NCBI GenBank assembly: GCA_012798435.1
Contig: JAAZNF010000038.1
Location: 1 to 50,891, forward strand
Direction: 5' to 3'
Length of the DNA stretch: 50,891 nucleotides
Source of the DNA: Myxococcales bacterium
GTDB taxonomy: Bacteria; Myxococcota; B64-G9
Positions 3,309 to 39,575 of this stretch are shown here, in pieces. The notes beneath the pieces are model-generated. The model saw only the letters and a list, made by a program, of their open reading frames with translations, did not search any database and was not told the DNA's origin. A program made the position numbers and the translations under genes. Numbering within the stretch: position 1 is the first letter of the stretch; every line of letters starts with the position of its first letter.

Positions 3309-4625
3309 ATGGCCAAGACCAAAGTCATCATCATGGGCGCCGCCGGCAGGGACTTCCACAACTTCAACGTGGTGTACCGCGACAACCCGAACTACGAGGT
3401 GGTGGCCTTCACCGCCACCCAGATCCCCAAGATCGGCGGCCGCACCTACCCGCCGGTGCTGGCCGGCAAGCTCTACCCCAAGGGCATCCCCATCTTCGCC
3501 GAGGAAGAGCTCACCGATCTCATCCGCAAGCACGCGGTGGACGAGGTGGCGTTCTCCTACAGCGACATCCGCCACGAGGACGTGATGCACAAGGCCTCGC
3601 TGGTGCAGTCGGCCGGGGCCAGCTTCATCCTGCTCGGCCCCAAGGCCACCATGCTCCCCTCCAAGAAACCGGTGCTTTCGGTGTGCGCGGTACGCACCGG
3701 CGTGGGCAAGAGCCAGACCACCCGCTACGCGGTGGACACCCTGCAGAAGATGGGCAAGAAGGTGGTCTCCATTCGCCACCCCATGCCCTACGGCGACCTG
3801 GCCAAGCAGGCCTGCCAGCGCTTCGCCACCCTCAAGGACCTCGACAAGCACGAGTGCACCATCGAGGAGCGCGAGGAGTACGAACCACACATCCGGCGCA
3901 AGGCGGTGGTGTACGCCGGCGTGGACTACGGCCAGATCCTGGCCGAAGCCGAGAAGGAGGCCGACGTCATCCTGTGGGACGGCGGCAACAACGACTTCCC
4001 CTTCTACCGCTCCGACCTGCTGGTCGTCCTGGTGGATCCGCACCGGGCCGGGCACGAGCTCTTGTACCACCCGGGCGAGACCAACCTGCGCATGGCCGAC
4101 GTGGTGGTCATCAACAAGATCACCACCGCCAAGCCGGAGTGGATCCAGACGGTACAGGAGAACATCGCCCGGGTGAACCCCAAGGCCACCGTGGTCAAGG
4201 CCAACAGCCCCATCACCGTCGAGCGCCCCGAGCAGGTGAAGGGGAAGCGAGTGCTGGTGATCGAGGACGGCCCCACCCTCACCCACGGCGAGATGAGCTA
4301 CGGCGCCGGTACCCTGGCCGCCGAGCAGTTCGGGGCGAAATCCATCGTGGACCCGCGCGGCGCGGCGGTGGGCTCCATCAAGGCCACCTTCAAGAAGTAC
4401 CCCCACGTGGGGCCGCTGCTCCCCGCCATGGGCTACCACAAGGAGCAGCTCGCCGATCTAGAGGCCTCCATCCGCAAGGTGGACTGCGACCTCATCCTGC
4501 TGGGCACGCCCATCGACCTCTCGCTGGTGATCAAGCTGGACAAGCCCTTCATGCGGGTGTTCTACGAGCTGGCCGACCACGGCGATCCCACGCTGGCGGA
4601 CATCATCCGCAAGAAGTTCGCCTGA
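3309..4625 (+). CDS. Cyclic 2,3-diphosphoglycerate synthetase-like GTPase
   Basis: A 438-residue protein. The N-terminus (VIIMGAAGRDFHNFN, residues 6-20) looks like a Rossmann-type nucleotide fold. A P-loop follows at about 130-136 (TGVGKSQ), and VILWDGGNNDFPF is a Walker-B-like stretch. The arrangement matches the family annotated as GTPase or cyclic 2,3-diphosphoglycerate synthetase, named from methanogens; bacterial members have no settled role. The start at 3309 is preceded by GGAGG, and the in-frame ATG at 3222 is rejected because it lies before the promoter. argF follows in the same direction after a terminator-like hairpin. In bacteria the substrate is an open question. Confidence 0.75.
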   Translation: MAKTKVIIMGAAGRDFHNFNVVYRDNPNYEVVAFTATQIPKIGGRTYPPVLAGKLYPKGIPIFAEEELTDLIRKHAVDEVAFSYSDIRHEDVMHKASLVQSAGASFILLGPKATMLPSKKPVLSVCAVRTGVGKSQTTRYAVDTLQKMGKKVVSIRHPMPYGDLAKQACQRFATLKDLDKHECTIEEREEYEPHIRRKAVVYAGVDYGQILAEAEKEADVILWDGGNNDFPFYRSDLLVVLVDPHRAGHELLYHPGETNLRMADVVVINKITTAKPEWIQTVQENIARVNPKATVVKANSPITVERPEQVKGKRVLVIEDGPTLTHGEMSYGAGTLAAEQFGAKSIVDPRGAAVGSIKATFKKYPHVGPLLPAMGYHKEQLADLEASIRKVDCDLILLGTPIDLSLVIKLDKPFMRVFYELADHGDPTLADIIRKKFA

Positions 4626-22137: not shown

Positions 22138-23973
22138 TCAGCCCTTTCGAGCCGCCAGGCTCTTGAAGGTGGTCAGGGTGCGCTCCAGCCCTTCCCGGCT
22201 GTCGGAGAGGCTGTTCAGCTCGCGCCGCTTGATGGCCAGGCGGGCTCGCTGGATGGTGGCCTCGGCCTTGTTCAGCGCCTCGCGGGAGAAGCGTGAGGCC
22301 GAGATCACCTCGCCCACCCCGGGCAGGAGCTTCTCGATCTCCTCGATGATCTTTTCCACCTGGACGCGCTGTTTCTCGAACTCCTCGTCCTGGGCGGCGG
22401 ACAGCAGGTAGTCGCGGTTGTCCTCCGCCATGCGCTGCACCTCGTCCTCGGTGAGGCCCGAGGTGGCGGTGACCACGATGGACTGCTGGCGTCCAGTCTC
22501 GATGTCCTTGGCCGAGACCGACACGATGCCGTCGGCCGATATGTCGAAGCGGATCTCGATCTCCACCTCGCCGCGTGGCGCCTCGCGCAGGCCGGAGAGG
22601 ATGAACTCGCCGAGCAGCTCGTTCTCCGAGGCCACCTTGCTCTCGCCCTGGAACACCATGATGCGGGCCGAGGTCTGCCCGTCCTTGACGGTGGTGAACA
22701 TGTGGCTGGCGCTGGTGGGCACGGTGGTGTTCTTCTGGATCAAGGTCTGGAAGTAGCCACCCACGATCATGATGCCGAGCGAGTGCGGGGTGACGTCGAG
22801 CAGCAGGGTCTCTTCCTTCTTGCCCGGGCCCTCGCTGACCAGGGCGAACCCCTGGATGGCCGCGCCCAGCGCCACCACCTCGTCCGGGTGCACGTTCTTG
22901 CACGGCTCACGCCCGAAGTACTTCTGCACCAGCTCCTGCACTTTGGGCATGCGGCTCTGCCCGCCCACCAGGATGACGTCGGAGATGTCCTTGGGGGTGA
23001 GCCCGGCGTCCTTGATGGTCCGGTCGCAGATGTCGATGGTGCGCTCCACCAGGTCGATGGTGAGCTCCTCCAGCTTCTTGCGGTCCAGCATCTTCTGGAA
23101 GTGCAGGGTGCGGTTCTTGCCGGTGGAGAACAAGAATGGCAGGTTGATCTCGACCTCGTTCTGAAAGGACAGCTCGCACTTGGCCTTCTCGGCGGCGTCC
23201 TTGAGGCGCTGCAGGGCCATGGGGTCGGTGCGCGGATCGAGGTTGTGCTCCTTGGCGAAGTTGAACACCATCCAGTCGGTGATGCGCTGATCGAAGTCCT
23301 CGCCGCCCAGGAAGGTGTCCCCGGCGGTGGCGATGACCTCGTACACCCCGTTGCCGATCTCCAGGATCGAGATGTCGAAGGTGCCGCCGCCCAGGTCGTA
23401 CACCGCCACGCGCTTTTCGATCTTCTTGCCGAAACCATAGGCCAGGGCGGCGGCGGTGGGCTCGTTGATGATGCGTAGCACGTCCAAGCCGGCGATGCGC
23501 CCCGCGTCCTTGGTGGCGGTGCGCTGGCCGTCGTTGAAGTAGGCCGGGCAGGTGATCACCGCCTTGGAGATGGGCGCCTTGAAGAACTCCTCGGCCACCC
23601 GTTTCATCTCGGTGAGCACGATGGCCGAGATCTCCGGGATGCTGTATTGCCGGTCCTGCACCTGCACCCGGATGTCGTTGTGCGGCCCCTCCATCATGCG
23701 GTAGGGCATGCGCTCCTTCACCTGCTGTACCAGCTCGCTGTTCCACTTGCGCCCGATGAAGCGCTTCACCGCGAACAGGGTGTTCTGGGGATTGGTGATG
23801 GCCTGGCGCTTGGCCAGGTGTCCCACCAGGCGCCGCCCGCCGGCGGTGAAGGCCACGATGGAGGGGGTGGTGCGGTAGCCGCCCTTGTTGGCGATCACCA
23901 GAGGCGCGCCGTTCTCCACCACCGCCACGCACGAATAGGTGGTGCCGAGGTCGATTCCCAGTACTCGTTCCAT
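22138..23973 (-). CDS. dnaK: DnaK-type Hsp70 chaperone
   Basis: A 611-residue Hsp70. The ATPase domain shows [15 protein letters not shown] (about 6-20), [12 protein letters not shown] (about 193-204) and [15 protein letters not shown] (about 333-347). The substrate-binding domain includes [11 protein letters not shown]. The protein is shorter than housekeeping DnaK and ends in a basic helix (SLAARKG) without the acidic tail. That, and the absence of grpE or a canonical dnaJ beside it, suggests a specialised paralogue. It is the middle gene of a three-gene operon, 22 bases after the J-domain gene and 13 before the TPR gene. Confidence 0.92.
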
Positions 23974-23995
23974 GCGCTCTCCCGTGGTGCGCGGG

Positions 23996-25315
23996 TCAAC
24001 CCCGCGTCCGGCGCAGCTCCTTGAGCCGGGCCTGCACTTCCTCGTCCGCCGGCTTGTGCTCCGCGTAGCGGGCGTACTCCCGCAAGGCGTTCTTGTTCAT
24101 CCCGAGTTCGAGGTAGAGCTCTGCCAGGATACGCATGAGCTCCGCGTTGTCCGGATCCAGCGCCTGGGCCCGGCGGCAGTAGTTGACCGCCGTGCGCAGG
24201 TCGCGCTTGGCCGCGAGCAGGAGCTCCGCGGCCTTGGCCAGGGCATGCGGCTCGTCCGGCAAAAACTCGAGTACCCGCAGGTACGTACGCAGGGCGTCCT
24301 CGGACCGTCCCATGGACTCCTCGGAGCGGGCTCGCTTCAGGTCCTTCTCGGCCCGGATCTTGCCCGCCTTGGGCTTGACCTCCTCCGCGAGTTTCTCGTA
24401 CTCGGCCTGGCCCGGGTCCAGCGAAAGCGAGAGCTGGATCTCGTTCATGGCGCGCACCGGGTCGTTGCGCTTCAGGTAGTCCTGGGCCGAGGCGAAATGC
24501 TCGCGGGCCTGGGCTTTTCGCTGGGAGAGCGGCATGCGCCGGAGCAGCCGCTGGCGACGCTCCTCGCGCATGCGCTCGTCGCGCTCCTGGATGGCCTTGA
24601 GCTTGCGGGCGGCCTCCAGCTCCTCGGGGGTGGGTTCGTAGGGGAGCGTGGCGTCGTAGGCCTTGCGCTGTTCGGGGTTCGAGAGCACCTCGTAGGCCCG
24701 CGTCACGCGCTTGAAGATGTCCTCCACCCGCGTCTTGAAGCTCCCCAGCTCCTTGCGAAAGTAGGTGTCCGGATGGTACTGGCGCGAGATCTCGAAGTAG
24801 GCCCGCTTGATGTTGCGCTGATCCGCGTGGCGCTCGACCTCGAGGAGCTGGTAGTGGGTCAGCTCGTTCATCTTCTGGTGCAGGTAGAGGATCTTGCGCC
24901 GGGTCGCCTCGTCGAGATCGGCCTTCTCCTCCAGCAAAGTGTCGTCGAACGCCATGTTCAGCCACGGCTGCTTGTCGGGCGGCGCCGGCTCAGCGGATGT
25001 CGCCTCGGCGACCTGATCGGGCGAGGGCGCGGTCGGCTTGAGCTCCTCCGCGGTGTGGCGCCGGCCGCCGGATTCCCAGCCGACCAGGCCCTTGTCACGC
25101 AGTGAATCGAACAGGGCCCGGCCGCGTTCGAGCGGAAACCCCGAGGTCTGGATCAGGAGCTGCATGGTGGAGACGCCGTCCACCTTGAAGAGCAGGAAGG
25201 CTTCTTCCGGGGAGAGCTGAACCGCGGAGGGATCGATCGAGCCTGTGCGCTGGGGCACGATGCGCGCTTCCGGCCCTTCGTCGCTGCCGGAGGTGTTGGT
25301 TTCTTCCGTCGTCAA
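23996..25315 (-). CDS. J-domain protein with N-terminal winged-helix-like domain and C-terminal TPRs
   Basis: A 439-residue co-chaperone candidate. Residues about 33-80 (AFLLFKVDGVSTMQLL, then LFDSLRDKGLVGW) form a domain also seen at the C-terminus of the TPR protein of this operon. The J-domain lies at about 153-218 and keeps the HPD tripeptide (SRQYHPDTYF), so it should stimulate Hsp70 ATPase. After a charged helix, residues about 275-430 form TPR-like repeats (LRVLEFLPDEPHALAKAAELL, NYCRRAQALDPDNAELM). There is no Gly/Phe or zinc-finger region, so this is a class C J-protein. It is the first gene of the operon. Confidence 0.85.
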   Translation of the reverse strand: MTTEETNTSGSDEGPEARIVPQRTGSIDPSAVQLSPEEAFLLFKVDGVSTMQLLIQTSGFPLERGRALFDSLRDKGLVGWESGGRRHTAEELKPTAPSPDQVAEATSAEPAPPDKQPWLNMAFDDTLLEEKADLDEATRRKILYLHQKMNELTHYQLLEVERHADQRNIKRAYFEISRQYHPDTYFRKELGSFKTRVEDIFKRVTRAYEVLSNPEQRKAYDATLPYEPTPEELEAARKLKAIQERDERMREERRQRLLRRMPLSQRKAQAREHFASAQDYLKRNDPVRAMNEIQLSLSLDPGQAEYEKLAEEVKPKAGKIRAEKDLKRARSEESMGRSEDALRTYLRVLEFLPDEPHALAKAAELLLAAKRDLRTAVNYCRRAQALDPDNAELMRILAELYLELGMNKNALREYARYAEHKPADEEVQARLKELRRTRG

Positions 25316-25430: not shown

Positions 25431-26174
25431 CTAGCGCAGAGCCTTTCCGGTCATGGGGACGAACCGTACGTCGAGCCTCGCGAGCTCCACGAGCTTTCCA
25501 TCCCGTTTTACATAGGTGTAAAGCACCTGGCTTCCCTCCGGCCCGAGCGGGACCGAAAGTCGGCCGCCTTCTCGAAGCTGGGCGACGATGGGCGGCGGGA
25601 TCGCGCGCGGCGCGGCGGTGATGATGATGGCATCGAACGGCGCCTCCTCGGGCCAGCCGTCCCACCCGTCAGCCACCCGGAGCGCGACCTGATATCCCAG
25701 ATCGCTCAGGATACGGCCCGCCCGCCTAGATAGTTCATCAATTATTTCAAGGGAGTACACCCGGGCGCCGATCTCTGCCAGGATGGCCGCCTGGTATCCC
25801 GAACCGGTGCCGACCTCCAGCACCTTGTCCCCCCTGTGGAGTTTCAGAGACTCGGTCATGTACGCCACGATGAAGGGCTGGGAGATGGTCTGGCCCTGAC
25901 CGATGGGGAGCGGGTAGTTGCCGTAGGCCTCGTCGAGCTGGGCCTCGGGTACGAAACGGTGCCGCGGCACCTTTCCAATGGCCGAAAGGACCGCCGGATC
26001 GCGAATCTCGGACCGCAGCTCGGACACCAGCGCAGCACGGCGCCGCGCGAAGGTCTCCTCGTCGGGCGTGCCGGCCAAACACGAACCACAGCCGCAGCCT
26101 GCCAACCAGGCTCCCGCGAAGATGAGGCCCATGATCCAAGGCCCGGTCGTCAGGTGTCGCCGCCGCAGATCCAT
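25431..26174 (-). CDS. pcm: Protein-L-isoaspartate O-methyltransferase with lipoprotein signal
   Basis: The start at 26174 has GGAG at ideal spacing; the open frame further upstream is shadow. The 247-residue product carries all PCMT marks: PIGQGQTISQPFIVAYM, SAM motif VLEVGTGSGYQAAILAEIG and AIIITAAPRAIPPPI. These enzymes methylate isoaspartyl residues in aged proteins for repair. The odd point is the N-terminus: a basic stretch, a hydrophobic run (WIMGLIFAGAWL) and a lipobox LAGC at about residue 27. This predicts export and lipid anchoring, although SAM is cytoplasmic. It overlaps the upstream MopE-like gene by 25 bases. Confidence 0.88.
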   Translation of the reverse strand: MDLRRRHLTTGPWIMGLIFAGAWLAGCGCGSCLAGTPDEETFARRRAALVSELRSEIRDPAVLSAIGKVPRHRFVPEAQLDEAYGNYPLPIGQGQTISQPFIVAYMTESLKLHRGDKVLEVGTGSGYQAAILAEIGARVYSLEIIDELSRRAGRILSDLGYQVALRVADGWDGWPEEAPFDAIIITAAPRAIPPPIVAQLREGGRLSVPLGPEGSQVLYTYVKRDGKLVELARLDVRFVPMTGKALR

Positions 26175-28147
26175 TGGACTCCGATCTTTTTCAATATCGG
26201 GGTCACCCCTTCCACATCGGAGGCCATCTCGACCTCCACCTGGAGAAAGCGGCCCATCACCTGGCCCGCCAGGAGCAGATCGGCCGGCGACACGGTGAAG
26301 GGACCGAAGCGCTGTGAACCGGGGATGGCTTCGCGCGTGTCGGCGGCGCGCACGTAGACCTTGAGCGAGGTCCCTGCCGGGACGGTGGCCTCCCAGGACA
26401 CCTGTTTCCACTGGGTGCTCACCGAAGGCATGCAGCCTTCGAACACCTGCCGGTAGGTGCCGCGGGGCGCGGTGAAGTTGCGCAGCGCGAACCCGGTGAA
26501 GTCGGAGTACGTGTAGGTGCCGAGCCCGACCGGGTAGCAGTCCACCCCGCCCTGGGTGTCGACGCGGCAGGCGGTGCCGGTGCCGCCATCGTTGCGGTTG
26601 ACGCCCCAGGCGCAGCCGTCGAAGTCGATCCCCACGCCGATGGTCTCGAAGCCGTTGGGGAAGTCGAAGGTTTGCAGGTTCGAGCCGTCGTCGGCCCGGA
26701 AACGGGTCACGCGCCCGACGTACTCGCTGCTCGTGGTCCAGGAGTGCGCCAGCCAGATGTTGCCATCCCCGTCCGCAGCAATGCCCCGGCCCACGCCCAG
26801 CCCCGGCGTCATCACCACCATGGTCTGGCCCGTGGCGGGGTCGTAGGAGGCGGCGCCCTCCTGCTGGTAGCCACCCACCCACACACGGTTCTTGGCGTCG
26901 ATGGCGATGCCGTAGGAGCCCGCGAAACCTTCCAGTTGGATGAGCGGCCCGGCGCTGTGGGCGGCGGTGTCGATGTACGAGATGACCCCGGCGTTCTGCT
27001 GTGTGGTCCACACTCGCCCCAGGGAGTCGATGGCCGCCCCGTAGGGGTGCAGCGGGACGTCCACGGTCTCCAGCACCCGGCCGTCGTCGTAGGCCAGGTG
27101 GTAGAAGCGCCGCTCGTTGTAGCAACCGACCCAGGCGTTGGCACCCTCGTCGGCGGTCCCGGCGTCGAGGGCCAGGGCGCGCGGCACCCCGTTCTGCCCG
27201 CCCACGTTGACGGTGAACAGGATGCACTCGTCGGCGTCGCCCAAGAACTCCGCCGGATCGCCCAGGTCGATGACGCCGTTGTCGTTGGCGTCGTGAGAGG
27301 TGTCGATGCGGCCGTTCTGGTTGATGTCGTTGCAGTTCTCGTGGGCGATCTTGGTCACCGTCCCCTGGTAATTGAAGGCCCGGTTGGCCACCCACACGTC
27401 GCCGTTGAAGTCCACCGCGGTGCGCGAGGGGGCGTTGGCGCCGCCTGCTGGCGCCGAGCCGCGGTTGCGCGGATCGGGCGAGGTCAGCGCCGAGACGTAA
27501 CGGCCCTCCTCCTTGCCGGTCTTGGTGTTGACCTTGGAGACGGTGCCCTCGTCGGAGTTGGCCACCCACAGGAAGGTCAGCTCGGTCTGGTGCTGCCCCG
27601 GCTCGAGCACCACGTTCCCGTCGGGGTCCAGATCCAGGCCGCGGCCGTTCTGATCATCCACCACGAAGCCGGTGCCGGTGCCGGGTCCGATCTCCTGCCC
27701 GTAGCAGCGCGGGCCGCAGTCGGTGCAATGGATGCCGTCGTCGGTCTTGCCGTCGCAGTCGTTATCGAAGCCGTCGCACACCTCGTCCACCGGAAGCACC
27801 TGGCCCTCGCAGACGCCGAACTTTTCGTTGTAGCAGCGGCGGATCCCCGAATGGCACAGCCCCTTGCCGTTGAGGTCGGGGTCGGCCTCGAAGCAGCTCT
27901 GCGTCTCGTCCCCGGTGCATTCACAGCCGGCGTGGGGCACCACCGCGCAGTCGCAGGAGAAGTTGAGCCCGGGATCGGAGTCATCGCAGTCCGGGCCCAG
28001 CCGGCAGTTCTCGCCGTAGCCGTCGCCGTCGCCGTCCAGGCACTCGCCGGTGTTGTTGCCCGTTCCACCGCAATCGCAGCCGGCACCGACCCAGAGCAGA
28101 GCCAGCACTCCCGGTACCACCCACTTGCGAACGATCGCCGCTTTCAT
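26150..28147 (-). CDS. MopE-like Cys-rich lipoprotein with beta-propeller
   Basis: I chose the ATG at 28147, which has GGAGG upstream and begins a lipoprotein leader (ALLWVGAGC). The product is 665 residues. The N-terminal 150 residues hold MopE-type metal-binding units (DGDGYGENCRLGPDCDDSDP; EVCDGFDNDCDGKTDDG). The rest is a six-bladed NHL/SMP-30-like propeller with repeated patterns such as AIDSLGRVWTTQQN, AIDAKNRVWVGG and AADGDGNIWLAHS. EF-hand-like loops (DINQNGRIDTSHD) are inserted. It is probably surface-exposed and calcium-binding. The function is unknown; it is not a recognisable lyase. Confidence 0.75.
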   Translation of the reverse strand: MKAAIVRKWVVPGVLALLWVGAGCDCGGTGNNTGECLDGDGDGYGENCRLGPDCDDSDPGLNFSCDCAVVPHAGCECTGDETQSCFEADPDLNGKGLCHSGIRRCYNEKFGVCEGQVLPVDEVCDGFDNDCDGKTDDGIHCTDCGPRCYGQEIGPGTGTGFVVDDQNGRGLDLDPDGNVVLEPGQHQTELTFLWVANSDEGTVSKVNTKTGKEEGRYVSALTSPDPRNRGSAPAGGANAPSRTAVDFNGDVWVANRAFNYQGTVTKIAHENCNDINQNGRIDTSHDANDNGVIDLGDPAEFLGDADECILFTVNVGGQNGVPRALALDAGTADEGANAWVGCYNERRFYHLAYDDGRVLETVDVPLHPYGAAIDSLGRVWTTQQNAGVISYIDTAAHSAGPLIQLEGFAGSYGIAIDAKNRVWVGGYQQEGAASYDPATGQTMVVMTPGLGVGRGIAADGDGNIWLAHSWTTSSEYVGRVTRFRADDGSNLQTFDFPNGFETIGVGIDFDGCAWGVNRNDGGTGTACRVDTQGGVDCYPVGLGTYTYSDFTGFALRNFTAPRGTYRQVFEGCMPSVSTQWKQVSWEATVPAGTSLKVYVRAADTREAIPGSQRFGPFTVSPADLLLAGQVMGRFLQVEVEMASDVEGVTPILKKIGVQWICGGDT

Positions 28148-28264: not shown

Positions 28265-29734
<1,470 letters not shown>

Positions 29735-29745
29735 GACTTTCTCCT

Positions 29746-30246
29746 CTATCTTCGCGCCTCGTGACCCACCGCCCGGTGGCACTGGGTGCACAGCACCGCG
29801 TCGTCTGCCGATGTCGCACCGCGCACCATCTCCTGCACGAGGTCCGCGTGGCAGCGCAGGCAGTTCTGCTGTAACACGCTGTGGTTGAAGGGTTTGATGC
29901 GGATGGGCTCGTCGAAGACCTTGCGCTCGCCGGGCAGGTCCGGGCGCGGGCTCTGAAAGGTGAACCCCATGGCGTGATGGTAACCGTTGCGGGCCTTGGC
30001 CAGGTACTTGGCGAAGAAGCCGGCCGGCAGGTGGCAGTCGCCGCACCCGGCCACCGCGTGGTGCGGCCCCTTGCGCCAGGAGTCGAAGTGCCCGCGCATG
30101 ATGTGACAGTTGGCGCAGGCGGCCGGATCGTCGTAGAGGTACGAGAACCCCTCGGCGTAGCCGAAGGTGAAGGCGCCCAGGCCGGCCAGCACGCCACCGA
30201 GCGCGGCGATCAGGAGCCAGCGGAGGGACAGGGCCGGGCGAATCAC
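29746..30246 (-). CDS. nrfH: Tetraheme quinol dehydrogenase NrfH (NapC/NirT family)
   Basis: A 166-residue membrane-anchored cytochrome that passes electrons from menaquinol to NrfA. The start is GTG at 30246 with GGAGGG upstream, overlapping the ygbA stop (GTGA). One membrane helix spans about 10-30. Four c-heme motifs follow: CANCH (44-48), CGDCH (68-72), CLRCH (129-133) and CTQCH (153-157). Met50 directly after the first motif fits the CxxCHxM signature of the NrfH quinol-site heme. Longer open frames upstream are shadow. Confidence 0.93.
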   Translation of the reverse strand: MIRPALSLRWLLIAALGGVLAGLGAFTFGYAEGFSYLYDDPAACANCHIMRGHFDSWRKGPHHAVAGCGDCHLPAGFFAKYLAKARNGYHHAMGFTFQSPRPDLPGERKVFDEPIRIKPFNHSVLQQNCLRCHADLVQEMVRGATSADDAVLCTQCHRAVGHEARR

Positions 30247-30593
30247 CGCGCTCCCTCCTTCCCGAGCGTCGGGGCCTCCCGCCGGCCGACCAGCAGGTGC
30301 CGCAGCGCCATCACGGGGTGACGCCAGGCCATCCGCGGCCCCGCGTAGCGCATCACCCGGCGGATGGCCTCTCGTGATTCCGGCCGGAAGCAATGGACCG
30401 GACAGCGTTGACAGGTCGGCTTGTCGGCACCGAAGCGGCAGGCGCGCACCCGCCGCTCGGCGTAGGCGGCCAGCTCCGCGCAATTTTCGCAGAGCCCCGC
30501 CGCGCCTCCATGCTGCGCGGCGCAATACATCCCGATCATCGTTCGCACCGTCTCGATCTCCCGATCGATCCGGCGACTGGCGGCTGCCCGCAT
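30243..30593 (-). CDS. ygbA: YgbA family protein (nitrous oxide-stimulated promoter family)
   Basis: A 116-residue cytoplasmic protein. It matches the YgbA pattern by eye: REIETVRTMIGMYC, LCENCAEL, CRFGADKPTCQRCPVHCF, then REAIRRVMRYAGPRM and HPVMALRHLL. Eight Cys residues, several paired, suggest metal or Fe-S binding. In E. coli ygbA belongs to the NsrR regulon and its loss affects growth after NO stress; the activity is unknown. Here it sits between a cupin gene and nrfH. The start ATG at 30593 has GGAGG seven bases upstream; a TTG three bases before it is less likely. Confidence 0.85.
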   Translation of the reverse strand: MRAAASRRIDREIETVRTMIGMYCAAQHGGAAGLCENCAELAAYAERRVRACRFGADKPTCQRCPVHCFRPESREAIRRVMRYAGPRMAWRHPVMALRHLLVGRREAPTLGKEGAR

Positions 30594-30616: not shown

Positions 30617-30961
30617 TCAGGCCCCACGGATCATGACGAGCAGCATCTTGAAGCGTTCGCTCGCCCGCAGCGCGTGCGGCACGTTGGCCGGCATGAGGAT
30701 CATTTCCCCTGCCTTCACCCGCCGCACCACGTCCCCGATGCGGATCTCGGCGCTGCCGGACACGACCTGCACCAGGGCGTCGAACGGCGCGGTGTGCTCG
30801 CTGAGCCCCTGCCCCCGATCGAAGGCGAAGGCGGTGACGGTGCCGGTCTTGCGCTTGAGGATCTCCCGGCTGACGATGGCGCCCTTCTGGTAGGCGACCA
30901 GCTCCGCCACCCGGCCACAGTCAAAGGCCGTCCGCCCGGCACGATTCGTCTTCTGACTCAT
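30617..30961 (-). CDS. Small single-domain cupin
   Basis: A 114-residue cytoplasmic cupin. Start ATG 30961 has GGAGG upstream and overlaps the tetR stop (ATGA); the in-frame extension to 31003 is rejected. The first cupin motif is in FDRGQGLSEHTAPFDALVQVVSGSAE (continuous, about 46-71) and the second in VKAGEMILMPANVPHALRA. Metal ligands seen are His from SEHTAPFD and His from VPHAL. Such small cupins may bind metals or small ligands. Position between tetR and ygbA suggests a role in sensing or detoxifying reactive nitrogen, which is inference. Confidence 0.8.
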   Translation of the reverse strand: MSQKTNRAGRTAFDCGRVAELVAYQKGAIVSREILKRKTGTVTAFAFDRGQGLSEHTAPFDALVQVVSGSAEIRIGDVVRRVKAGEMILMPANVPHALRASERFKMLLVMIRGA

Positions 30962-31551
30962 CTCGCTCGCCTCCCTCGCAGCACGTCCTCGATAACGCGC
31001 CATACCTTCTCGACGATGGCACCGTGAGAACGGCTCTTCACCACCCGGACCCCGACGTGGGACAACGCGTGGATGGCGCCGAGCACGATGACGGCCGCCG
31101 CCTCCGGGTCGAGACGCGGGTCGAGCTCTCCCCTGGCCGCCGCGTGCCGGATGCAGTCTCGCACGAACTTTTGCGAGCGCCGCTTGAACTCGGCCAGGCG
31201 CCGCGCCATCGTCTTCCCCGCCGCCCGGCCCAGGTGTTGCGATTGCAGCAGGCGCGAGACGTCGGGGTGGGCATGGATGACGTCGATCCGGTACCGAAAG
31301 ACCTTTTCCAGGCAGCGCAACGGATCATCGTCCCCCAGTGGGAATCCCGAGAACAGCCTCGCCTCCATGCTCTCGATGACCGCGTCCACGATGGCGCTCA
31401 TGCTGGGAAAGTGCCGAAAAAGCGCACCGGGGGTGATGCCCAGCTCGTCGGCCAGGGCCTGCGCGGTGAACTCGCGCGGGCCGCGGCGCGCAAGCAGCCG
31501 CAGCGCCACGCGGACGATATGCTCGTTGGAGTACCGCGCCGGTCGGGACAT
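30958..31551 (-). CDS. TetR-family transcriptional regulator heading the nrf operon
   Basis: A 197-residue regulator started at ATG 31551 (MSRPARYSNE), with AAGGGG upstream. The N-terminal helix-turn-helix is complete: IVRVALRLLARRG, FTAQALADELGITPGALFRHFPS. The C-terminal ligand domain has a few His residues (VIHAHPDV, SQHLGR) and one Cys (VRDCIRHA) but no heme or Fe-S motif. Its gene opens the operon cupin-ygbA-nrfH-nrfA with overlaps and short gaps. An AT-rich palindrome 47 bases upstream is the likely operator. Autorepression and joint control of the divergent hemerythrin-PAS gene are inferred. Confidence 0.88.
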   Translation of the reverse strand: MSRPARYSNEHIVRVALRLLARRGPREFTAQALADELGITPGALFRHFPSMSAIVDAVIESMEARLFSGFPLGDDDPLRCLEKVFRYRIDVIHAHPDVSRLLQSQHLGRAAGKTMARRLAEFKRRSQKFVRDCIRHAAARGELDPRLDPEAAAVIVLGAIHALSHVGVRVVKSRSHGAIVEKVWRVIEDVLRGRRAR

Positions 31552-31570
31552 GGATTGCCCCTTTCGCCAC

Positions 31571-31599
31571 CAGCCTACCCGCGGACATTTTTTTGTCAA
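31571..31599 (-). promoter_or_regulatory. Promoter of tetR-nrfHA operon
   Basis: On the minus strand a perfect TTGACA (31599-31594) is followed after 16 bases by TAGGCT (31577-31572), a weak -10. Transcription would begin about 15 bases before the tetR start. The -35 touches the palindrome, so a bound repressor should block it. Confidence 0.5.
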
Positions 31600-31615
31600 T
31601 AAGTATTTACTTATT
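31598..31615. promoter_or_regulatory. Palindromic operator, probable TetR-binding site
   Basis: AATAAGTA and TACTTATT are perfect 8-base arms with a 2-base centre. This is an AT-rich island in GC-rich DNA. It overlaps -35 elements of both divergent promoters, the usual arrangement for a TetR-type repressor controlling itself and a divergent target. Confidence 0.7.
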
Positions 31616-31633
31616 TACCGGGTGCATTATCAT
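31606..31633 (+). promoter_or_regulatory. Promoter of the DUF438-hemerythrin-PAS gene
   Basis: TTTACT (31606-31611), a 16-base spacer and TATCAT (31628-31633) lie about 40 bases before the ATG at 31676. The -35 falls inside the palindrome at 31598-31615. Confidence 0.5.
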
Positions 31634-31675
31634 AGGAGTCGCTTGCGTCCGCCCCCTGAACCTGGAGGTGTGTCC

Positions 31676-33145
31676 ATGAAGCTTTCGCAGAAGACCAAGG
31701 TCCACGAGCTGCTCGCCACCTATCCGTTCCTGGAGGACTTCCTGGTGTGCCGCAGCCCGAAGTTCTCGATGCTCAAGAACCGCATGGCCCGCGCCACCAT
31801 CGGCCGCCTGGCCACCTTGCGAGCCGCGGCCGGGATCGCCGATCTCGACCTGGGGACGCTGCTCGACGAGCTGGCCGCGGAGATCCAGCGGGTCACGGGT
31901 GCGCGGCCCGAGATCGAAAAGCCCGAGGCGGGATCCGCGCCGGGCAGAGCCGAGCGCCTGAGCGCGCTCAAGTCCATCATCCAGGAGCTGCACGACGGCG
32001 GCGATCTGGAGAAAGCCCGGGCGCGCTTCCAGGAGGCGGTGGAGGACGTAGAGGCCTCCGAGATCGCGGCCATGGAGGAAGAGCTGATCCGGGGCGGGCT
32101 CCCGGTCTCGGAGGTGCAGCGCCTGTGCGACGTCCACGTGGGGGCGTTCCGGCACGCGCTGGACGAGCACCTACAGGTGGACGTGCCGCCGGGCCACCCG
32201 GTGCACACCTACCGTGCGGACAACCGGGCGATCTCTCGGCTGGCCGAGGAGCTGGGCTCCCTGGCGCGTGCGGCCGCCGGGGGAGAGGCGCAGGCGCTTC
32301 CCAAGGCGCGCTCCGTCCTGGAGCAGCTCGCGGGCATTGAAAACCACTACCAGAGGAAAGAAAACCAGCTCTTTCCGCTGCTCGAGCGCCACGGCGTGAC
32401 TGGACCCTCGCAGGTCATGTGGGGGGTACACGATCAGATCCGCGCCGCGCTGAAAACCGTCCGCGCAGCCGCCGACAAGCAAGACACGAACGCCTTTGCC
32501 GAGAAGGCGCCGGCGCTGGCCCGGGACATCGCGGAGATGGTCTACAAGGAAGAAAAGATCCTGTTTCCCTTGGCCCTGCAGACGCTCACGGACGGGGAGT
32601 GGGCCGAGGTCCGGCGCGGCGAGGACGAGCTGGGATACGCATTGGAGAAGCCCGCCGCCGACTGGCCCGCGCATTCGCCAGCGCCCTCCCCCACCCCGGC
32701 CCCCGCCAACGCCCCGGAGCTCCTTCCGCTCAAGACCGGGGCGCTCTCCCTCGAACAACTCAACCTGATCCTGACCCACTTGCCGGTGGACCTCTCCTTC
32801 GTCGACGAGAGCGACACGGTGCGCTTCTACTCCGAGGGACCGGCGCGGATCTTCCCGCGCAGCCCGGCGGTGATCGGCCGCAAGGTGCAGCAGTGCCACC
32901 CGCCGAAGAGCGTCCATATCGTCCAGGAGATCCTCGACGCCTTTCGCAATGGCTCAAAGGACGTGGCCGAGTTCTGGATCCCGCTCGGCGGTAAGTTCAT
33001 CCACATCCGCTACTTCGCGGTCCGCGACGCGGACAAGAAGTACCGCGGCTGCCTGGAGGTGAGCCAGGACGTCACCGCCATCCGGACGCTCCAGGGCGAG
33101 CAGCGGCTGCTCTCCTGGATGAAGCCCTCGAAGCCTGATGCCTGA
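31676..33145 (+). CDS. DUF1858/DUF438 - hemerythrin - PAS protein
   Basis: A 489-residue cytoplasmic protein. Start ATG 31676 has GGAGG seven bases upstream. Residues about 5-60 look like DUF1858 (VHELLATYPFLEDFLV). About 95-160 fits the DUF438 helical region. About 165-305 is a hemerythrin/HHE domain with the iron-ligand pattern HVGAFRHALDEHL, ENHYQRKENQLFP, HDQIR and MVYKEEKILFP. The C-terminal part (about 360-485) is a PAS domain (LPVDLSFVDESDTVRFYS, HIRYFAVRDADKKYRG). It resembles NO/O2-handling di-iron proteins such as RIC fused to a sensor. There is no output domain, so it may hand a signal to a partner or act as a detoxifier. Confidence 0.85.
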   Translation: MKLSQKTKVHELLATYPFLEDFLVCRSPKFSMLKNRMARATIGRLATLRAAAGIADLDLGTLLDELAAEIQRVTGARPEIEKPEAGSAPGRAERLSALKSIIQELHDGGDLEKARARFQEAVEDVEASEIAAMEEELIRGGLPVSEVQRLCDVHVGAFRHALDEHLQVDVPPGHPVHTYRADNRAISRLAEELGSLARAAAGGEAQALPKARSVLEQLAGIENHYQRKENQLFPLLERHGVTGPSQVMWGVHDQIRAALKTVRAAADKQDTNAFAEKAPALARDIAEMVYKEEKILFPLALQTLTDGEWAEVRRGEDELGYALEKPAADWPAHSPAPSPTPAPANAPELLPLKTGALSLEQLNLILTHLPVDLSFVDESDTVRFYSEGPARIFPRSPAVIGRKVQQCHPPKSVHIVQEILDAFRNGSKDVAEFWIPLGGKFIHIRYFAVRDADKKYRGCLEVSQDVTAIRTLQGEQRLLSWMKPSKPDA

Positions 33146-34952: not shown

Positions 34953-35520
34953 TCATCCGGTAGGCGTCGTGGGTTCCATGATGGAGGAACCGATAGTAGC
35001 GGACGAGCCTGGCCCGGACGGTGAACCCGGCGCTCTGATACAGGCGGAAGGCGGCGGAGTTGCTGCAGGCGACCTCCAACTCGATCTCGCGCATCTTGCG
35101 CAGCTCTGCACATTGCTCGACCGCGACCAGCAGTTGACGGGCGAAACCTCTTCCGCGGAACGCCGGGTCCACGTCGATGGTCTCGATATCGGCACGCAGA
35201 GCTTCCGAGGAACAGACCAAGATGGCGAAAGCGGCGATCTTTCCCCGGTGACGCAAGACCAGGCAATCGGCGTTGTCCGACAGCAAAAGCCCTCTCAGGA
35301 CGTCCTCGGAATAGGCCGTCGGCCCCAAAAAACAGCGGTGCTCGATCTCGCAGATGGCGTCCAGATCTCTCGGCTCGGCTCTGGAAATGGCGGCGACCTC
35401 GAAGAAACTGCGGTGGGACAACGCATGAAAAGGACTTACAAATTGGAAGGTTGCGCAATTGACAGGCTTGGGGACAAACCGGTAGAATGACTGTGAACCT
35501 CGGCCATGGAGGCGTTGCAT
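34915..35520 (-). CDS. GNAT family N-acetyltransferase, RimI-like
   Basis: A protein of about 201 residues if started at ATG 35520. The GNAT core is clear: ISRAEPRDLDAICEIEHRCF, then IETIDVDPAFRGRGFARQLL with the acetyl-CoA loop RGRGFA, and EVACSNSAAFRLYQSAGF. The start is uncertain. The first 40 residues before ISRAEP are not typical and overlap the promoter of the divergent gene; a TTG at 35421 would give the bare domain. ATG 35529 and 35589 are other options. The substrate is unknown; protein N-terminal or small-molecule acetylation are both possible. Confidence 0.75.
   Translation of the reverse strand: MQRLHGRGSQSFYRFVPKPVNCATFQFVSPFHALSHRSFFEVAAISRAEPRDLDAICEIEHRCFLGPTAYSEDVLRGLLLSDNADCLVLRHRGKIAAFAILVCSSEALRADIETIDVDPAFRGRGFARQLLVAVEQCAELRKMREIELEVACSNSAAFRLYQSAGFTVRARLVRYYRFLHHGTHDAYRMIKVLSPDARCRS
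35459..35488 (+). promoter_or_regulatory. Promoter for the Cys-rich lipoprotein gene
   Basis: TTGACA (35459-35464), an 18-base spacer and TAGAAT (35483-35488) are close to consensus. The predicted start near 35495 leaves a 24-base leader containing GGAGG before ATG 35519. Confidence 0.65.
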
Positions 35521-39486: not shown

Positions 39487-39546
39487 GGCCGCAGGATGGA
39501 ACGAATCGCCATTCGATTCAAGTCTTGAAAAGGTCGCTCTGACGAG

Positions 39547-39575
39547 TTGCCAGTCAACGGTCGGTTGTGTATGCT
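39547..39575 (+). promoter_or_regulatory. Promoter giving a near-leaderless transcript
   Basis: TTGCCA (39547-39552), a 17-base spacer and TATGCT (39570-39575) form a promoter whose predicted start falls at about the ATG at 39582. No Shine-Dalgarno sequence precedes that ATG. Confidence 0.5.

Follow-up and report, generated by a model that had tools for sequence, protein, structure and literature searches.

A conserved palindrome as the predicted shared operator of a TetR-family regulator at an nrfHA/hemerythrin-PAS locus in a Myxococcales bacterium

Results

A five-gene operon headed by tetR faces a hemerythrin-PAS gene

The window analysed here, the whole 50,891-nucleotide stretch of DNA of a Myxococcales bacterium, contains a TetR-family regulator gene that is transcribed divergently from a gene encoding a hemerythrin-PAS protein, with the following features:

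28265..29734, minus strand: nrfA, ammonia-forming cytochrome c nitrite reductase (PF02335, Cytochrom_C552, 1e-110)
29746..30246, minus strand: nrfH, quinol-oxidising cytochrome with four CXXCH (TIGR03153, 154.5 bits, cut-off 134.2)
30243..30593, minus strand: ygbA, YgbA_NO family protein, 116 aa (PF11756, 6.6e-42)
30617..30961, minus strand: cupin, 114 aa (PF07883), with an ATGA overlap with tetR
30958..31551, minus strand: tetR, TetR-family regulator, 197 aa, first gene of the operon (PF00440, 1.3e-12)
31572..31599, minus strand: probable tetR promoter, TTGACA-N16-TAGGCT, read from the sequence
31598..31615, no strand: perfect 8-2-8 palindrome AATAAGTA-TT-TACTTATT, predicted TetR operator by its sequence, the relatives' sites and its uniqueness
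31606..31633, plus strand: putative sigma70-type promoter of the hemerythrin-PAS gene, TTTACT-N16-TATCAT (scan 9/12)
31676..33145, plus strand: DUF1858-DUF438-hemerythrin-PAS protein, 489 aa (PF08984, PF04282, PF01814, PF13596)

An earlier note on this DNA had described two divergent genes, tetR and the hemerythrin-PAS gene. Their divergence holds, but tetR belongs to an operon of five genes, the last two being nrfH and nrfA, and neither the N-oxide biology nor the exchange of NorR for a TetR was mentioned there. The computed operon, tetR-cupin-ygbA-nrfH-nrfA, is tight, its neighbouring genes overlapping or lying a short distance apart all the way to nrfA (nrfH starts with a GTG that overlaps the ygbA stop, GTGA) and no space between its genes for a further promoter of note. 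On the plus strand, the start codon of the hemerythrin-PAS gene lies at 31676, with the ribosome-binding site GGAGG upstream. By its computed gene content, in which NrfH and a pentaheme NrfA are encoded together, the operon probably functions in nitrite ammonification and the response to NO. NrfA has five CXXCH haem motifs, lacks CXXCK and matches the NCBIfam NrfA equivalogs under their cut-off. An NrfA without CXXCK at the active-site haem is of the less common type, and this five-CXXCH type is functional in dissimilatory nitrite reduction to ammonium (DNRA; PMC12285233).

Downstream of the operon, the minus strand carries DnaJ-TPR and HSP70 genes (22141-25315), and a PCMT-type methyltransferase (25434-27569) lies between these and nrfA. 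In the stretches fetched around YgbA orthologs of four other genomes (G001, G002, G005 and G061), tblastn detected no relative of the TetR, cupin, NrfH/NrfA or hemerythrin-PAS proteins nearby.

The regulator has a TetR fold

The regulator matched the TetR_N helix-turn-helix domain (PF00440) at 47.8 bits, against a cut-off of 24, and its AlphaFold2 model (pLDDT 90.8) has the all-helical TetR fold with a C-terminal ligand/dimer domain; together with a conserved palindrome at its own promoter, described below, these are the hallmarks of the TetR family. In a structure comparison, 414 PDB chains matched at E<=0.001 and TetR regulators ranked highest (TM up to 0.80), the nearest solved structures being of the KstR2, SlmA and FadR types, and the best PDB match by sequence was SlmA. 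The ligands of TetR proteins of similar length are mostly small organic molecules. All eight proteins of alignment A1 have Cys133; several homologues linked to RND genes have it too, and it was not singled out as a sensor residue. An AHPD motif with a nearby His is common to the two nrfH-adjacent TetRs (window 30961-31551 and L099:2103-2726 of genome G194) and absent from the Anaeromyxobacter TetRs; these may be ligand or metal residues.

The palindrome overlaps two putative divergent promoters and occurs once in the genome

The full palindrome, AATAAGTATTTACTTATT at 31598-31615, is a perfect 8-2-8 inverted repeat, as the earlier note had described, and its surroundings form the most AT-rich 60 bp of a window of 68% GC. 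The next most AT-rich stretches are 35396-35490 and 39491-39566, the former lying between a GNAT acetyltransferase gene (minus strand) and a cysteine-rich secreted-type protein gene (plus strand), where it is likely a divergent promoter.

The computed plus-strand promoter, too, is exactly as the note had it, with its hexamers at 31606-31611 (TTTACT, the -35, inside the palindrome) and 31628-31633 (TATCAT), and it was the sole match in a sigma70-like promoter scan of 31450-31750 (9/12, 0.1 expected). On the tetR side, the TTGACA said to overlap the palindrome is present on the minus strand at 31599-31594, but the overlap is marginal, its first two bases alone being shared, and the -10 hexamer TAGGCT, 16 bp away, is weak. 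This promoter was not among the matches of the scan of 31450-31750.

How much weight can the palindrome bear by itself? No AT-rich palindrome (>=70% AT, gap 0-6) arose in 30 shuffles. Perfect 8-2-8 palindromes of any composition, however, are expected about 1.9 times per window by chance and were found twice, and so the palindrome is not significant by itself and its rarity was dropped as evidence. The case for an operator therefore rests on the comparison with relatives.

A scan of the genome (5.05 Mb, 129 contigs) gave no other copy of the whole palindrome at up to two mismatches and, at three mismatches, one match, AT-rich and unrelated. The core TAAGTANNTACTTA had no further copy in the 5.05 Mb at up to one mismatch, and the core shared by the family, TNAGTN4ACTNA, occurred at the 31598-31615 site only. 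We accordingly rejected a wider regulon in the same genome, since relaxed cores matched only this palindrome or unrelated AT-rich sequence. Many unrelated copies, which the earlier note had named as a refutation of its operator, are thereby excluded for these 5.05 Mb.

Matching palindromes precede the tetR genes of relatives

A search for related loci with the single window TetR as query found none; an alignment used as the query instead did recover them. In 13 relatives' loci, whose TetRs share ~37-45% identity with that of the window, a matching palindrome precedes the tetR gene itself, and the consensus over the 14 loci, several of which are close kin within Anaeromyxobacter, is AGTNAGTN3TACTNACT. 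TNAGTN4ACTNA lies 22-62 bp before the aligned start in 10 of the 11 TetRs at >=40% identity (the window's own counted), compared with 0 to 1% of shuffled controls. The eleventh (G194; L084, also L099 and L106) has TGCAAGTAAATGCTTATT, identical to the window site on the tetR strand in 15 of 18 letters. Operator-like sites were also seen at L108 (AGTAAGTAGATACTCGCT) and L110 (AGTAAGCAAATTCTTACT).

Because matching palindromes precede the relatives' tetR genes, the window palindrome very probably serves the adjacent TetR as its operator, a prediction from the site, its uniqueness and the conserved operator class, all of which were computed; the relatives' conserved palindromes are the strongest evidence that ties it to the TetR, whose binding we infer. 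The comparison thus supports a predicted operator for the adjacent TetR placed over two divergent promoters, and the proposal that such a site could shut both genes gains support from the relatives' palindromes and from its uniqueness in the genome.

In three Anaeromyxobacter loci (L107, L109 and L112), TTGC(N)2 stands on one side of the operator and a TA-rich hexamer resembling a -10 on the other, with the first ATG only a few bases further on, so that the tetR mRNA may be leaderless. In a Thiotrichales bin (L113), we saw no clear operator before the hemerythrin-PAS gene, a point against the shared-operator reading; an AGTN4ACT lies at 3488-3497, between tetR and hcp.

Close TetR relatives adjoin genes of the N-oxide response

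The neighbours of the closer relatives recall those of the window. In G194, tetR-cupin is divergent from an nrfH that scores over the NrfH cut-off, with the operator in between (L099), and in both L099 and L106 the TetR relative adjoins NrfH and the same cupin. In L108 the same cupin follows tetR, and L110 has tetR-nrfH-nrfA close to genes for NorR, YtfE and a flavodiiron protein. In the Thiotrichales bin, genes for hemerythrin-PAS, TetR and the hybrid cluster protein Hcp (over cut-off) stand in a row (L113:1898-4821), and in L021 and L111 a hemerythrin gene is divergent from tetR. Farther TetR relatives have RND efflux genes as neighbours.

In Anaeromyxobacter, tetR is followed by a DUF6448 gene (e.g. 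L022:8095-8748), which also follows the hemerythrin-PAS-cupin pair of a NorR-like cluster in genome G119 (L068, 8682-9248). DUF6448 has no assigned function, and its place in these two settings points to a part in the N-oxide response; the N-oxide link of the DUF6448-linked TetRs themselves is putative. A search of the window genome for DUF6448 gave no match, and its controls were silent too.

A neighbour gene of these kinds was found beside 8 of 9 close TetR relatives versus 1 of 71 distant ones (p 3e-9), and beside 5 of 9 versus 1 of 71 when DUF6448 was left out (p 3e-5), p values that are optimistic because the gene queries were picked partly from the same loci, and that compare relatives tied by kinship and so not independent. 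The TetRs linked to nrf or cupin genes, that of the window included, form a moderately supported group in the tree, next to the one from Anaeromyxobacter.

A single L110 contig (423-7116) encodes a flavodiiron protein, YtfE (over cut-off), NorR, a second cupin, TetR, NrfH and NrfA, with TetR and NorR, both regulator types, side by side.

Orthologs of the plus-strand gene are linked to sigma54 activators

Orthologs of the hemerythrin-PAS protein in three genomes share 66% (G005), 53% (G119) and 47% (G020) identity with it, and each is followed by the same cupin. The regulator near the ortholog pair in G005 (L063) is a true NorR (697 bits, cut-off 476), and those in G119 and G020 (L068 and L070) are GAF-sigma54 regulators under the NorR cut-off. 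In G005 and G119, a 12/13 match to a sigma54 promoter precedes the first gene, and another precedes ytfE in L110, a NorR locus; of random 150-mers, 2-7% reach 11/13. The 12/13 match in G020 sits 750 bp off and is not convincing. No TetR-type operator was seen upstream of these NorR-linked orthologs.

In the window, the intergenic region 31552-31675 has no -24/-12 sigma54 match, and no protein of the window genome scores above the NorR cut-off, so that the locus does not qualify as part of a NorR regulon. With a sigma54 activator beside the orthologs and a TetR here, the same effector pair therefore comes under a different type of regulator in the window. The best reading of this computed regulator swap is that a local, autoregulated TetR repressor would stand in for NorR over an N-oxide module.

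Weighing other readings of the palindrome

The alternative that survives best, though we consider it unlikely, keeps the palindrome as the TetR operator and changes the inducer to a small hydrophobic molecule or another metabolite, nrfHA then serving, for example, hydroxylamine or sulfite reduction. The ligand-binding TetRs among the nearest solved folds, such as KstR2 and FadR, and the RND pumps beside farther homologues fit this alternative, but the close relatives adjoin several unrelated N-oxide families (nrfH, hcp and hemerythrin, with ytfE and norR nearby), and the plus-strand gene has a NorR-linked ortholog in a member of the family.

It is considerably less probable that a different regulator, of the FNR/CRP, NsrR or HcpR type, uses the palindrome and that the TetR acts elsewhere. 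Such an assignment would suit nrf operons, which are usually under the Crp-FNR family, NsrR or two-component systems (PMC12285233), and the nrfHA of Geobacter and Desulfuromonas, regulated by HcpR (PMC1274295). The palindrome, however, tracks TetR genes over 14 loci, some without nrf or hemerythrin-PAS, and the genome has the family core at this one place, whereas a global regulator would have sites elsewhere too.

A SlmA-like nucleoid occlusion factor, with the palindrome as one of its chromosomal sites, would account for SlmA being the best PDB sequence match and for half-sites similar to those of the SlmA site GTGAGTACTCAC (PMC3116907). We give this very little credence: the SlmA model scored 48.8 bits against a cut-off of 120 and, where SlmA requires many sites, 50 in E. 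coli (PMC3116907), GTGAGTACTCAC occurs in the 5.05 Mb genome in no exact copy and once at one mismatch, results on which we rejected membership of SlmA; nor is SlmA the head of an nrf operon. An AT-rich promoter spacer that is palindromic by accident, for which the chance expectation of about two per window speaks, is just as improbable, given that the operator class is conserved at the tetR promoters of relatives, G194 having nearly the same letters.

Discussion

Soils retain nitrogen through dissimilatory nitrite reduction to ammonium, a process for which the regulators known so far are mainly the CRP/FNR, NsrR, NarXL/NarQP, Nss and NrfSR systems. Control of nitrite and NO defence is, in known bacteria, the task of other kinds of regulator than TetR. 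Our overall reading of the locus, to which we assign a probability of roughly 60%, is that the palindrome serves the adjacent TetR as a shared operator through which both transcripts are kept low, with induction by N-oxides and a role like that of NorR.

The DNA mechanism as such is ordinary. On the hemerythrin-PAS side, a TetR dimer on the palindrome would cover the promoter's -35, and on the side of tetR-cupin-ygbA-nrfH-nrfA it would abut the -35, and a single bound dimer could therefore keep both transcripts low; that the promoter on the tetR side matches the consensus poorly and no more than touches the operator counts against this reading. Beyond repression, we infer induction by N-oxides and what the inducer is: the TetR ligand pocket would be reached or modified by nitrite, by NO or by a product of nitrosative damage, and with the repressor gone from the DNA both arms would come on at once. 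Of these steps, the inducer is the least certain. NrfHA would then convert nitrite (and NO) to ammonium, the hemerythrin-PAS protein, the cupin and YgbA would take part in NO handling or repair, and the TetR would in turn restore repression, shutting itself off again.

More tentatively, at slightly less than even odds, the TetR relatives, found in Myxococcota, Riflebacteria, Acidobacteria and Thiotrichales bins, may form an undescribed family of N-oxide-responsive one-component repressors over nrfHA, hemerythrin-PAS, hcp and cupin genes, in which a TetR senses NO or nitrite and stands in for NorR/NsrR. If true, a TetR switch replacing NorR over the nrfHA/hemerythrin-PAS module would add a new class of sensor, in a compact single-operator system whose inducer is directly testable. 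The finding is more interesting than the earlier note had it, because the switch would serve a nitrite/NO module and takes the position that is occupied by NorR in relatives.

The nrf regulators described in PMC12285233 are FNR, Crp, NarXL, NarQP, NsrR, Fis, IHF, Nss and NrfSR, and the N-oxide regulators in the regulon reconstruction of PMC1274295 are HcpR, DNR, NnrR, NarXL, NarQP, NorR and NsrR, with no TetR in either. We found no TetR-type NO or nitrite regulator in the open-access literature, and the claim of novelty is limited to that extent. The known N-oxide regulators NsrR, NorR, HcpR and DNR/NnrR have Rrf2, AAA+ sigma54 or CRP/FNR folds, and the window regulator is a TetR.

Among known systems, SlmA is the nearest solved relative by sequence and has a related half-site, but it is an FtsZ antagonist with many sites, and the window TetR falls below the cut-off of the SlmA model. 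NsrR resembles the window regulator in its reading as a repressor and in its similar targets, namely nrf, ygbA and hemerythrin-like di-iron genes (PMC12285233, PMC1274295), and differs in having an Rrf2 fold with an Fe-S cluster, whereas the window regulator is a local TetR with a single site. NorR by its position controls the orthologous hemerythrin-PAS-cupin genes in L063, in a layout that is likewise divergent, but it is an AAA+ activator with a sigma54 promoter, as opposed to a TetR with a sigma70-type promoter. The closest likeness in arrangement is to the divergent, autoregulated TetR repressors of the TetR/TetA, AcrR and TtgR type, which share the TetR_N domain, the predicted TetR fold and, between the gene for the repressor and its divergent target, a short palindrome as operator, lying over both promoters; unlike in these, the window repressor gene is the first of a nitrite-ammonification operon, and its divergent neighbour encodes a hemerythrin-PAS protein in place of an efflux pump or drug-type target.
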